This document shows positions 9,991-13,340 of a stretch of 42,287 nucleotides of DNA, piece after piece. The notes beneath the pieces were generated by a model. It saw only the letters and a program-made list of their open reading frames with translations. It was not told the origin of the DNA and did not search any database. The DNA is taken from assembly GCA_016124795.1 (NCBI GenBank), contig WGNB01000075.1:1-42287 (forward strand), given 5' to 3'. The stretch comes from Rhodopseudomonas sp. GTDB lineage: Bacteria > Pseudomonadota > Alphaproteobacteria > Rhizobiales > Xanthobacteraceae. Position numbers and translations under genes: made by a program. Each line of letters opens with the position of its first letter. Position 1 is the first letter of the stretch.

Positions 9991-10236
9991 TCAGTCGCAG
10001 ACCGTGACGCGGCGCCAGCGCTTGCCATAGGGCGTGAAGACGACGCGGCGCACGACGTAGCAGTTCGAAGCGCCGTAATAAGCCGGGCCGTAGAAGCCGA
10101 CCGGGTAACCGTAACCGTACCAGCCATGATGGCCGTGGTGATGACCATAGGGGGCGGCGGACGCGGCGGTCGGCGCCAGCGCGGCGGCGGCGAGAACGGC
10201 GGCGGAACCCAGAGCGATGGTGAGCTTGCGGATCAT
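9991..10236 (-). CDS. Small secreted His/Gly/Tyr-rich protein
   Basis: This encodes 81 residues. A clear signal peptide (residues 1-28, cleaved after AASA) is followed by GHHHGHHGWYGYGYP and a C-terminal part with CYVVRRVVFTPYGKRW and a final Cys80. The two cysteines (59 and 80) could form a disulfide, and the His cluster could bind metal. AGGAGATGCCACC gives a good ribosome-binding site, and longer upstream frames lack one. I recognise the type from Hyphomicrobiales but know no function. Its promoter is a copy of the promoter of the divergent ECF sigma gene, so it probably belongs to that regulon. Confidence 0.8.
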   Translation of the reverse strand: MIRKLTIALGSAAVLAAAALAPTAASAAPYGHHHGHHGWYGYGYPVGFYGPAYYGASNCYVVRRVVFTPYGKRWRRVTVCD

Positions 10237-10283: not shown

Positions 10284-10314
10284 ATGGGTCGCGACGGCCA
10301 CCGGAAAGGTTCAA
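10284..10314 (-). promoter_or_regulatory. ECF-type promoter of the small secreted protein
   Basis: On the minus strand TTGAACC, 16 bases, CGACCCAT. The identical two boxes with identical spacing occur in the other direction before the sigma gene. Transcription would start near 10278, leaving a leader of about 42 bases with a good ribosome-binding site. Confidence 0.75.
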
Positions 10315-10497: not shown

Positions 10498-10528
10498 TTG
10501 AACCTGCGCGCGGTCGCGAACGACCCAT
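10498..10528 (+). promoter_or_regulatory. ECF-type promoter of the sigma/anti-sigma/subtilase operon
   Basis: TTGAACC (10498-10504), 16 bases, CGACCCAT (10521-10528). GAACC at -35 and CGAC at -10 are typical of ECF sigma promoters. The expected start near 10533 leaves a leader of only about 20 bases before the ATG at 10552, and rules out earlier start codons. Confidence 0.75.
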
Positions 10529-10551: not shown

Positions 10552-11112
10552 ATGCAAACCGCCACGGACGAGGTTCTGATTGCCCGGATCGCCAATGGCG
10601 ACCGGCTGGCCATGCAGGTGCTGTTCGCGCGCCATCATGTCCGGGTCTACCGCTTCGTGCTGCGGCTGGTGCGCAACGAAGCCACCGCCGAGGATCTCAT
10701 CAGCGATGTGTTCCTCGACGTCTGGCGGCAGGCCGGCAAGTTCGAGGGCCGCGCCGCGGTTTCAACCTGGATGCTCGGCATCGCGCGCTTCAAGGCCTTG
10801 TCGGCCTTGCGGCGCAAACCGGAAGCCGAACTCGACGACGAGACCGCCGAGCGGATTGAAGACGACGCCGACGATCCGGAAACGACGCTGGCGAAAAAGG
10901 ACAAGGGTTCGCAATTGCGGGAAGCCCTGAACGGGCTGTCGAACGAACATCGCGAGATCATCGACCTCGTTTACTACCACGAGAAGTCGGTCGAGGAAGT
11001 GGCGGGGATCGTCGGCATTCCGGAAGCGACGGTGAAGACGCGGATGTTCTACGCGCGCAAGAAATTATCGGAGCTGCTCAAGCAGCAAGGGATCGATAGA
11101 GGCTGGCCATGA
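10552..11112 (+). CDS. ECF-family RNA polymerase sigma factor
   Basis: This encodes 186 residues, the normal size of an ECF sigma factor. Region 2 (about residues 24-90) contains FARHHVRVYRFVLRL, the region 2.2 motif AEDLISDVFLDVWRQ, and STWMLGIARFKAL. An acidic linker (90-115) leads to region 4 (about 120-178), with REIIDLVYYHEKSVEEVAGI and the helix-turn-helix GIPEATVKTRMFYARKKL. No good Shine-Dalgarno sequence precedes the ATG. The stop overlaps the anti-sigma start as ATGA. The gene probably activates its own promoter. Confidence 0.93.
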   Translation: MQTATDEVLIARIANGDRLAMQVLFARHHVRVYRFVLRLVRNEATAEDLISDVFLDVWRQAGKFEGRAAVSTWMLGIARFKALSALRRKPEAELDDETAERIEDDADDPETTLAKKDKGSQLREALNGLSNEHREIIDLVYYHEKSVEEVAGIVGIPEATVKTRMFYARKKLSELLKQQGIDRGWP

Positions 11113-11780
11113 TGACGAGCAACACAGACGCGCCAAGCGACATCGAGGGCTTGCTGCCGTGGTATGCGGCAGGCACGCTCGGTCCAGCCGACACCCGCCG
11201 TGTCGAGGACGCGCTGGCGCGCGATCCGGAACTGGCGCGGCACTACGCGCTGGTGCGCGACGAACTCGGCGAAACCATCCTGCTCAATGAAACGCTCGGC
11301 GCGCCATCGACGCGCGCAATGGATGCGCTGTTCGCCAAGATCGACGCCGAGCCGGTGCGGCGGCCCGCCACGTCACTCAATCTCGGCGCGCGGCTGTCGT
11401 CGTTCGTCGCCAGTCTGACGCCACGCACCCTGGCTTTCGCCGGCGGCGCGGCGGCATTGGCGATCCTGTTGCAGGCCGGCATCATCGCCACCGTGCTGGT
11501 CAAGCAACCCGCGCCCGGCCATTACGTCACCGCCTCGGCGCCGTCGACCGATCCGGGCGTCGGCGCATTCACGCTGATCCGCTTCGCGCCGCAGGCAAGC
11601 CAGGACGACGTCACCAAATTTCTTCAGGCCAATCATCTGGCGGTGGTCGCGGGGCCGGCGGCGAACGGATTCTATCGGGTGCGGCTGTCGGCGGTCGCGC
11701 TGCCGAAGGCAGACTACCTGACCGCGATCAAGAAACTACGCGCCGACAAGGTGGTCGGCTTCATCGCCGCCACCGAATAA
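11109..11780 (+). CDS. Membrane anti-sigma factor with a protease-prodomain-like periplasmic domain
   Basis: This encodes 223 residues. The N-terminal cytoplasmic part (1-105) begins with the anti-sigma signature LLPWYAAGTL (15-24) and would hold the ECF factor. A single membrane helix spans about 107-131. The periplasmic part (132-223) has the order strand (FTLIRF), helix (DDVTKFLQANHL), strand (FYRVRL), helix (YLTAIKKLRADKVV), strand (GFIAATE). This parallels residues 124-196 of the subtilase encoded next, including LQAxH, YRxR and an IxxLxA followed by V. It is translationally coupled to the sigma gene and 66 bases before the protease gene. The similarity to a protease prodomain was judged by eye. 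Confidence 0.85.
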   Translation: MMTSNTDAPSDIEGLLPWYAAGTLGPADTRRVEDALARDPELARHYALVRDELGETILLNETLGAPSTRAMDALFAKIDAEPVRRPATSLNLGARLSSFVASLTPRTLAFAGGAAALAILLQAGIIATVLVKQPAPGHYVTASAPSTDPGVGAFTLIRFAPQASQDDVTKFLQANHLAVVAGPAANGFYRVRLSAVALPKADYLTAIKKLRADKVVGFIAATE

Positions 11781-11846
11781 CCCTCATGTGTCGCGCGGGC
11801 GAACGAACGACCGGCACGCGCGAACCCTAGAACGGGAGGCCAGGCT

Positions 11847-13340
11847 ATGCGGATCACCTTCAAGGCCCTGCTTGGCGTCGCTACCGGCCTGATCATGGTC
11901 GCGGGCGTCGTCGCCACCGCGTCAGCGCAAAGCTACAAATATCGCAGTCAACCGACGCCGTCGCGCGGCGATAGCGGCAATCACGATGGCGGCCATCGCG
12001 GCGGCGGCTGGCGCGGTCCCGGCTGGGGCGCGGCGATCCCCGGCATCCTGATGGCGATCCCGCAGCGCGGACCGTCGGAAGACGTCTTCATCGACGACGG
12101 CAGCGTCGTCGAGGACGTCGATCGTCCGCGCCGCAAGCGGCAACCGCCGCAACGCAACGCGCGCCGCAATCCCAGCGGCGCGCCGCCGGCCAACGAACGC
12201 CGGCTGGTGCCGGACGAAGTCGTGATCGAATTGCGCAACACCGTCTCGCCGCAACAAGTCGATGCGCTGCAAGCGCGCCACCGGCTGACGCGGCTCGGCT
12301 CGCTAACCAATCAACTGTCGGGGACGACAATCTATCGCTGGCGGATTCCCGATCGCCGTTCGGTCGCCACCGTGATCCGTCAGCTCGAAGCCGAGAATCT
12401 GGTCGCCTCGGCGCAGCCGAATTATCGCTATGCCCTGCAACAGACCGCGACCGCCGCGCCGGAAGGCGACCCGGCGCAATATGAGCTGGCCAAATTGCGC
12501 CTGCCGCAAGCCCATGCGCTGACAAAAGGCGACGGCGTGCTGGTCGCGGTGGTCGACTCCGGCGTCGATGCATCGCATCCGGAGCTGGCCGGCAGCATCG
12601 CCGGCTCGTTCGACGCATTGGCGACGAAAGAACCACCGAATAAGCACGGCACCGCGATCGCCGGTTTGATCGCGGCGCATGGCCGGCTGATGGGAGCCGC
12701 GCCCGCCGCCCGCCTCCTCGCGGTGCGGGTCTTCGACGCCGCCGGCGGCGGCACCACCTTCGACATCGTCAAGGGCCTCGATTACGCCGCCACGCAACAT
12801 GCCCGCATCATCAACATGAGCTTCGCCGGCCCGCCCGATCCGATCGTCCGGCGCAGCCTGACCGCCGCCGACAAGATGGGCATCGTGCTGATCGCCGCCG
12901 CCGGCAATGCCGGGCCGAAATCGCCGCCGCTTTACCCGGCGGCTTATCCGGACGTGATCGCGGTCAGCGCCAGCGATGCCGACAACAAGCCGTCGGCCTT
13001 TTCCAACCGTGGCCGCCATATCGCGGTGACGGCGCCCGGCACCGACATCATGGTGGCCATTCCCGATGGCGAATTTGAAGTCTCGTCGGGCACGTCCTAT
13101 TCGGCGGCCGAGGTTGCCGGCGTCACGGCCTTGATGCTGGCGCGCGACGGCAAGCTGACGCCGGCGCAAGTGCGCCGCATTCTGACAACGACCGCCCAGG
13201 ACATCGGCCCGAAGGGCCGCGACAGCCTATTCGGCGCCGGCCTCGCCGATGCATTCGGCGCGGTCTCGAGCGAAACCGCGGCGGTCGCCAGCGACGGCAC
13301 GCGCCAGCCCATCGAGCGGGTCAGCACCGGCGCGCGCTGA
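11847..13340 (+). CDS. Secreted subtilisin-like serine protease (S8 family)
   Basis: This encodes 497 residues. The signal peptide (1-27, cleaved after ASA) is followed by a Gly/Arg/Pro-rich, low-complexity linker (30-118). An inhibitor-like prodomain (about 122-196) and the S8 catalytic domain (about 210-460) come next. The triad is Asp237 (VVDSGVD), His267 (KHGTAIAG) and Ser417 (SGTSYSAAE), with the oxyanion Asn354 (AAGNAG). GTSYS replaces the commoner GTSMA, but all key residues are kept, so it should be active. GGGAGG precedes the ATG. It is the third gene of the sigma operon, and its place suggests that it processes the anti-sigma factor or a surface target. Confidence 0.92.
   Translation: MRITFKALLGVATGLIMVAGVVATASAQSYKYRSQPTPSRGDSGNHDGGHRGGGWRGPGWGAAIPGILMAIPQRGPSEDVFIDDGSVVEDVDRPRRKRQPPQRNARRNPSGAPPANERRLVPDEVVIELRNTVSPQQVDALQARHRLTRLGSLTNQLSGTTIYRWRIPDRRSVATVIRQLEAENLVASAQPNYRYALQQTATAAPEGDPAQYELAKLRLPQAHALTKGDGVLVAVVDSGVDASHPELAGSIAGSFDALATKEPPNKHGTAIAGLIAAHGRLMGAAPAARLLAVRVFDAAGGGTTFDIVKGLDYAATQHARIINMSFAGPPDPIVRRSLTAADKMGIVLIAAAGNAGPKSPPLYPAAYPDVIAVSASDADNKPSAFSNRGRHIAVTAPGTDIMVAIPDGEFEVSSGTSYSAAEVAGVTALMLARDGKLTPAQVRRILTTTAQDIGPKGRDSLFGAGLADAFGAVSSETAAVASDGTRQPIERVSTGAR

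Follow-up and report, generated by a model that had tools for sequence, protein, structure and literature searches.

In a 42,287-nucleotide stretch of a Rhodopseudomonas sp. genome (contig WGNB01000075.1 of assembly GCA_016124795.1; hereafter the window, which is part of contig C12 in a genome of 5.14 Mb), three consecutive genes encode an extracytoplasmic function (ECF) sigma factor, a membrane anti-sigma factor and an exported S8 subtilase. Profile comparisons show that the periplasmic domain of the anti-sigma factor is homologous to the prodomain of S8 subtilases. The anti-sigma and subtilase genes lie exactly where an earlier reading, made from the sequence only, had placed them, with the sigma gene immediately upstream (Table 1). 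The anti-sigma factor comprises a cytoplasmic anti-sigma domain, one probable transmembrane helix within residues 105–132, a stalk and a periplasmic domain, as judged from the sequence. AlphaFold2 predicts a helix over residues 105–132, and together with weak anti-sigma profile matches this may point to the single-pass, N-in architecture of those anti-sigma factors that regulated intramembrane proteolysis sets free. The neighbouring protein matches the S8 family profile and carries the Asp/His/Ser triad. It begins with a signal-like N-terminus and a low-complexity stretch, after which come the prodomain (PF22148, E 2e-6) and the catalytic domain (PF00082). It is the sole S8 match found in its own genome, which also contains an M50 site-2-type protease.

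For comparison, 113 loci were collected, 36 in a first set (L032–L067) and 77 from 76 genomes of the same order in a second (L068–L144), the latter being drawn from the 87 of 297 genomes of the order that gave a match, our own genome among them. The two sets may share species. Ten of the 87 genomes are covered by short loci, and the subtilase was visible in four of these (L018, L019, L023 and L025). The closest relatives of the anti-sigma gene, at about 70% identity, carry the labels Pseudolabrys or Hyphomicrobiales. All 106 subtilases considered (the incomplete proteases of L061 and L118 were left out and the window was added) have an intact catalytic triad.

Within the window alone, the likeness between the anti-sigma domain and the adjacent prodomain is weak. 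BLASTP gives 15.8 bits and an E value of 1.7 for that stretch, and the Smith–Waterman score of 36 compares with a shuffle mean of 22.5 and is reached by 11 of 1000 shuffles; pairwise BLASTP was rejected as a deciding test because it is too weak. With profiles built from the relatives, the homology becomes clear. When 112 anti-sigma C-termini (L129 and L042 left out, window added) were compared with 105 subtilase prodomains (one of odd length left out), hhalign aligned the whole fold over 65 columns at 94.4% (E 8.5e-8), whereas the best of 300 column shuffles reached 7.6% and the reversed control 2.5%. Reduced sets of 69 and 52 sequences gave 93.6% (E 2.2e-7), and eight S8 prodomains from outside these operons gave 89% (E 2.2e-6). 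The resemblance proposed from the sequence held, and in the profile alignment the three string pairs cited for it (LQANHL with LQARHRL, FYRVRL with IYRWRI, AIKKLRADKVV with VIRQLEAENLV) fall into register. Against 30 SPOR domains the corresponding value was 42% over 33 columns (prodomains: 93% over 65), with single SPOR matches at E<=1 in 9 of 69 anti-sigma domains (best 1.9e-4), and 27 AsnC domains gave 0.2%.

A hidden Markov model (HMM) of the prodomain matched the anti-sigma C-terminus at E<1 in 42 of 112 sequences, versus 3 of 112 when reversed, and at E<0.01 in five versus none. The opposite direction was weaker: the anti-sigma domain HMM matched 21 of 106 prodomains at E<1 (reversed, none), and none at E<0.01. 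The Pfam model PF22148 (Fervidolysin_NPro-like) matched the domains of 21 of 69 relatives at E<=1 (best 2e-4); the window's own anti-sigma domain gave no PF22148 match. Most weight attaches to two blind searches of genomes, which connect the two sequence families in both directions. In 398 whole genomes the anti-sigma domain profile found matches in 38, one of them a 1036-residue S8 protease in another genome of the phylum, where the match falls inside the protein's Pfam prodomain stretch (the whole protein scoring slightly below the family cut-off). Conversely, the PF22148 model exceeded its curated cut-off at 13 places in 200 genomes, and one of these, in genome G303, is no protease but the anti-sigma gene (22.8 versus 21 bits). 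Another of the 13 (L260) is a short protein in which no protease domain was seen. Neither the anti-sigma protein nor the profile of its domain retrieved anything meaningful from the PDB sequences.

The predicted fold agrees with this assignment. AlphaFold2 places strands of the anti-sigma domain at residues 153–159, 178–181, 188–194 and 216–222 and helices at 165–174 and 200–211; in the subtilase prodomain the strands are at 120–130, 148–155, 160–166 and 186–197 and the helices at 135–144 and 173–181 (fusion numbering minus 103, from the read-through model described below). Helix 1 of both models coincides exactly in the register given by the sequence profiles. The sequence-only reading had named an unrelated fold as grounds for giving up the idea; the predicted fold is instead the prodomain-type ferredoxin-like fold. 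The order given in that reading, strand-helix-strand-helix-strand, was wrong: in the models the domain has the four-stranded beta-alpha-beta-beta-alpha-beta order of S8 prodomains. Structure matches alone were not accepted as proof of prodomain identity, given that Foldseek with the domain model returned no match at E<=0.001 (the top row being a DAHP synthase) and that in VIA-align, where a prodomain ranks first, Lrp, S6 and other ferredoxin-like folds follow within about 1.6 Z.

Linkage supports a single unit of three genes. Of the 113 loci, 101 have the subtilase downstream and six have it upstream, in both cases on the same strand, and in six it was not found, so that it accompanies the sigma/anti-sigma pair in 107 rather than being absent from most genomes, the outcome that would have counted against the idea. 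The six loci with swapped order keep the linkage. Three of the six loci without a subtilase are at contig ends (L064, L141 and L142), and one counted subtilase (L061) is itself cut by a contig end. Among 20 loci taken from the phylum-wide search, 13 contain sigma, anti-sigma and S8 genes (the same order accounts for three of the 13), three contain anti-sigma-like genes without an S8 gene (L183, L187 and L189), one is the protease itself and three are spurious or unassigned (L194, L195 and L197); the match in L195, a serine hydroxymethyltransferase, was rejected as unrelated and weak. A plasmid scan gave one anti-sigma match, and viral contigs, when scanned, yielded no relatives. The linkage also occurs on a named Methylocapsa plasmid, in the order S8, small open reading frame, sigma, anti-sigma.

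The position of a putative promoter points the same way. A looser form of the motif upstream of the sigma gene, TGAAC[CAT]-N13-18-CG[AT]C, occurs in 92 of 108 loci at a distance of 45–82 bases before sigma; the spacer has 16 bases in 89 of them, and several of the remaining 16 loci have near variants. Since the motif precedes sigma in this way and was found within 200 bases upstream of none of the 101 downstream-type proteases, the sigma, anti-sigma and protease genes are likely to be one operon. In its own genome the strict motif TTGAACC-N16-CGAC occurs 14 times, versus none for the pattern read backwards. From its position, we infer that this sigma factor uses the motif.

The anti-sigma domain differs from known prodomains in how it ends. 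An S8 prodomain continues as a C-terminal tail that enters the active site and leads on to a catalytic domain. The anti-sigma protein stops a median of 7 residues (6–13, n=112) after the anchor valine of the last strand, whereas prodomains have a median of 25 residues (17–73, n=105) from this valine to the catalytic domain, and the modelled subtilase prodomain strand extends to residue 197. The anti-sigma domain is therefore without the active-site tail. This argues for docking over inhibition, and speaks against a role as an I9-type subtilase inhibitor.

On the membrane side of the domain, the stalk (residues 132–147) is predicted to be disordered, with an AlphaFold2 predicted local distance difference test (pLDDT) below 50. 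It is little conserved except for the motif [YF]-x-T-A-S, in which Y/F is present in 105, T in 82, A in 102 and S in 88 of 112 sequences. The strict pattern is found in 77 of 112, versus a maximum of 5 in shuffled stalks and none in the N-termini. The tail of the subtilase prodomain carries [YF]-x-L-Q: of 106 sequences, 105 have Y/F at position 195, 63 have L at 197 and 51 have Q at 198. The pattern [YF].L[QA] occurs in 63 of 106 tails versus 11 at most in shuffles. The stalk and tail motifs differ, their likeness being limited to a looser aromatic-x-[LT]-[QA]. In complexes of subtilisin, P4, P2 and P1 touch the enzyme and P3 faces outward; both motifs show the pattern conserved, variable, conserved, conserved. 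This shared layout makes the stalk motif a candidate substrate. In one relative, L186, the anti-sigma stalk reads WQLQS, nearer to the [YF]xLQ of prodomain tails than to [YF]xTAS.

Taken as a signalling system, these features suggest the following scheme, to which we give slightly less than an even chance: a tail-less prodomain mimic docks the operon's own protease, which cuts the stalk and frees the sigma factor in an autoregulated operon. The sigma factor would be held at the membrane by the anti-sigma factor, with its tail-less S8-prodomain homologue in the periplasm. The subtilase would be exported, mature by shedding its prodomain, and dock on the anti-sigma domain via the surface that normally holds the prodomain. 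Because the anti-sigma domain has no tail, the active site would stay open, and the protease could make the site-1 cut in the flexible stalk at [YF]-x-T-A|S (Y139-V-T-A142|S143 in the window). Intramembrane cleavage of the RseP type would then free the sigma factor, which might transcribe its own operon, raising the output of protease, together with genes for a few secreted proteins. It is possible, and we suggest it tentatively, that an S8 prodomain was captured by an anti-sigma factor and lost its tail to become a receptor, that the protease cuts [YF]-x-T-A as a built-in P4–P1 motif, and that free active protease is the signal, which sigma amplifies. If so, a protease's folding and inhibition domain could be re-used as a membrane receptor for the same protease.

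A number of observations weigh against this scheme. Three loci (L042, L049 and L052) have no S8 gene within about 4 kb although there is room for one, and the relatives in L183, L187 and L189 have neighbours other than S8. Cognate pairs of prodomain and anti-sigma domain are barely more alike than non-cognate pairs (28.3 versus 26.7). The evolutionary rate of the anti-sigma domain does not covary with that of the protease's prodomain (partial r −0.01), and the test of distance and rate covariation with the catalytic domain was discarded as non-discriminating, since partial r was 0.38 both for the anti-sigma domain and for the comparison, the cytoplasmic anti-sigma domain, which cannot touch the catalytic domain. 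In an AlphaFold2 model of an artificial read-through fusion, the protease's own prodomain fills the canonical site; this model (pLDDT 83–97 over fusion residues 11–80, predicted template modelling score 0.75, two rows whose start strays to fusion residue 74–75) was rejected as evidence of a docking site, as it does not reveal where the anti-sigma domain would dock. The strict stalk motif is absent in 35 of 112 anti-sigma factors, and [YF].TAS occurs in none of 106 prodomain junctions. Of the six protease-first loci, only L110 has the promoter motif in the 300 bases ahead of the protease, so that sigma control of the protease is unsupported there. Finally, the putative anti-sigma factor EcfR6 of S. 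meliloti, discussed below, gives 2.8 bits with the prodomain-like domain profile, no clear match, though it is paired with an S8 protease.

The prodomain homology and the missing tail are also compatible with docking without cleavage, and the strong linkage would likewise fit a domain that acted as a brake. It might bind the mature protease and so report or buffer its amount, the occupied anti-sigma factor staying intact in a negative feedback, or it might fold or anchor the protease in trans, while another protease makes the site-1 cut. We consider this rather unlikely, as the conserved stalk motif, which sits in a segment predicted to be disordered and mirrors the layout of the prodomain tail, suggests that this protease is the cutter. 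The protease could instead be a mere output of the regulon, with the domain sensing another cue, such as peptidoglycan or misfolded protein, being ferredoxin-like by coincidence, and adjacency reflecting co-regulation. This we think unlikely: the profiles single out prodomains over SPOR and AsnC domains, PF22148 matches the domain at E<=1 in 21 of the reduced set of 69 relatives, and the PF22148 search of genomes reaches the anti-sigma gene of G303. That the window pair alone is not significant would suit an explanation by chance or artefact, in which short string matches, a common fold and linkage confined to close relatives combine to mislead. It is contradicted by the shuffled, reversed and unrelated-family controls, by linkage that reaches beyond the order and by the six loci that keep it with swapped order, and we regard it as very improbable.

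The docking and cleavage scheme has partial counterparts among known systems. Anti-sigma factors of the RseA/RsiW type, released by regulated intramembrane proteolysis, pair an ECF sigma factor with a one-helix anti-sigma factor that has a periplasmic part, as is probable here, and an M50 protease is present in this genome; unlike there, the periplasmic part here is prodomain-like and a dedicated subtilase lies in the same operon. Known site-1 proteases are DegS and PrsW and, according to a paper title, signal peptidase. To our knowledge, most ECF systems have neither an identified site-1 protease nor an identified signal for it; here a single operon supplies candidates for both, along with a specific docking domain and a five-residue cut site, each of them predicted, which makes the question directly testable. 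Stand-alone I9-type subtilisin inhibitors (for example POIA1) and S8 prodomains (PF22148) resemble the anti-sigma domain in predicted fold and profile, whereas the latter is membrane-tethered and lacks an active-site tail.

The nearest arrangement in the literature is rpoE6-ecfR6-SMa0142 of S. meliloti (group ECF26), where, according to the available part of the source, sigma, anti-sigma and serine protease genes are adjacent, RpoE6 activates SMa0142, the arrangement is widely conserved in ECF26 and the promoter reads −35 GGAATA / −10 GT (PMC6180224). The window system has TGAACC-N16-CGAC instead, its sigma factor is 29% identical to RpoE6 over 141 residues, and the S. meliloti protease gene, unlike that of the window, is divergent from the sigma/anti-sigma pair. 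On the unannotated pSymA record we take the S8 gene (Table 1) as SMa0142 and the next two genes as rpoE6 and ecfR6, by their arrangement; the putative SMa0142 scores 278 bits with the S8 profile of this family and 14 bits with the prodomain profile. The lysozyme receptor RsiV is an anti-sigma factor that undergoes degradation after its extracellular domain has bound an enzyme, as described in the accessible parts of PMC4183432 and PMC5014341. In that case a foreign enzyme is bound and signal peptidase does the cutting, whereas here the proposed ligand and cutter would be one self-encoded protease. In the available text of the review PMC8999054, subtilases are mentioned near ECF54, with the proposal that they control the sigma factor when an anti-sigma factor is lacking. 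A prodomain-like anti-sigma domain is not treated in the accessible portions of PMC7406223 or PMC3420878, and the literature matches listed, which cover the literature in part, include no description of an anti-sigma factor with a subtilisin-prodomain-like domain.

Table 1. Positions of the features discussed, in window coordinates unless a locus is given
Feature	Coordinates	Strand	Basis or remark
ECF sigma factor, 186 amino acids	10552..11112	+	NF009168/PRK12515 (E 5e-98); PF04542, PF08281
Membrane anti-sigma factor, 223 amino acids	11109..11780	+	NF052375 antisigma (E 2.8e-8) and zf-HC2 (0.0028), both below cut-off
Stalk motif YVTAS, residues 139–143, candidate site-1 cleavage site	11523..11537	+	Conservation in relatives; segment 132–147 with pLDDT <50
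Prodomain-like periplasmic domain, residues 153–222	11565..11774	+	Profile comparison, AlphaFold2 fold
Exported S8 subtilase, 497 amino acids, catalytic D237, H267, S417	11847..13340	+	PF00082 (E 2.4e-50)
Signal-like N-terminus of subtilase, residues 1–28, to ...ASAQ	11847..11930	+	Read from sequence
Subtilase prodomain, residues 120–197	12204..12437	+	
Prodomain tail Y195-A-L-Q198, thought to occupy the active-site cleft	12429..12440	+	Conservation in 106 sequences
Probable autoregulated ECF promoter TTGAACC-N16-CGAC	10498..10524	+	27 bases before sigma start
Second promoter motif copy, facing the divergent gene	10288..10314	-	
Divergent gene, 81-residue secreted-looking His/Gly/Tyr-rich protein, probable further sigma target	9991..10236	-	ATG 51 bases after motif
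S. meliloti pSymA S8 protease gene	L145:12426-13823	-	PF00082
Second listed region of pSymA rpoE6 locus	L145:14505-15287	+	
Region listed for an anti-sigma-like gene with a caspase-family (PF00656) gene nearby	L187:3883-6237	+	Adjacent
Region listed for an anti-sigma-like gene with a caspase-family (PF00656) gene nearby	L189:644-2374	-	Beyond a sulfate permease

Upstream of the sigma gene, the second copy of the promoter motif faces the divergent gene listed in Table 1, the longer open reading frame of which matched no Pfam family over cut-off (DUF4148, E 0.095). Elsewhere in the same genome, the copy in L210 precedes a 92-residue protein similar-looking to the 81-residue divergent protein. 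Copies lie shortly before secreted- or membrane-looking reading frames in L202, L207, L210 and L212 (147, 282, 92 and 65–73 residues, respectively), perhaps reflecting a small regulon, and several others fall inside long open frames.

Two anti-sigma-like genes, in L187 and L189, match the prodomain-like domain weakly and are not accompanied by S8; close to each lies a gene of the caspase family (PF00656), adjacent in L187 and separated by a sulfate permease in L189. If the proposed scheme is true, such relatives beside caspase-like peptidases may represent the same design re-used with other proteases.

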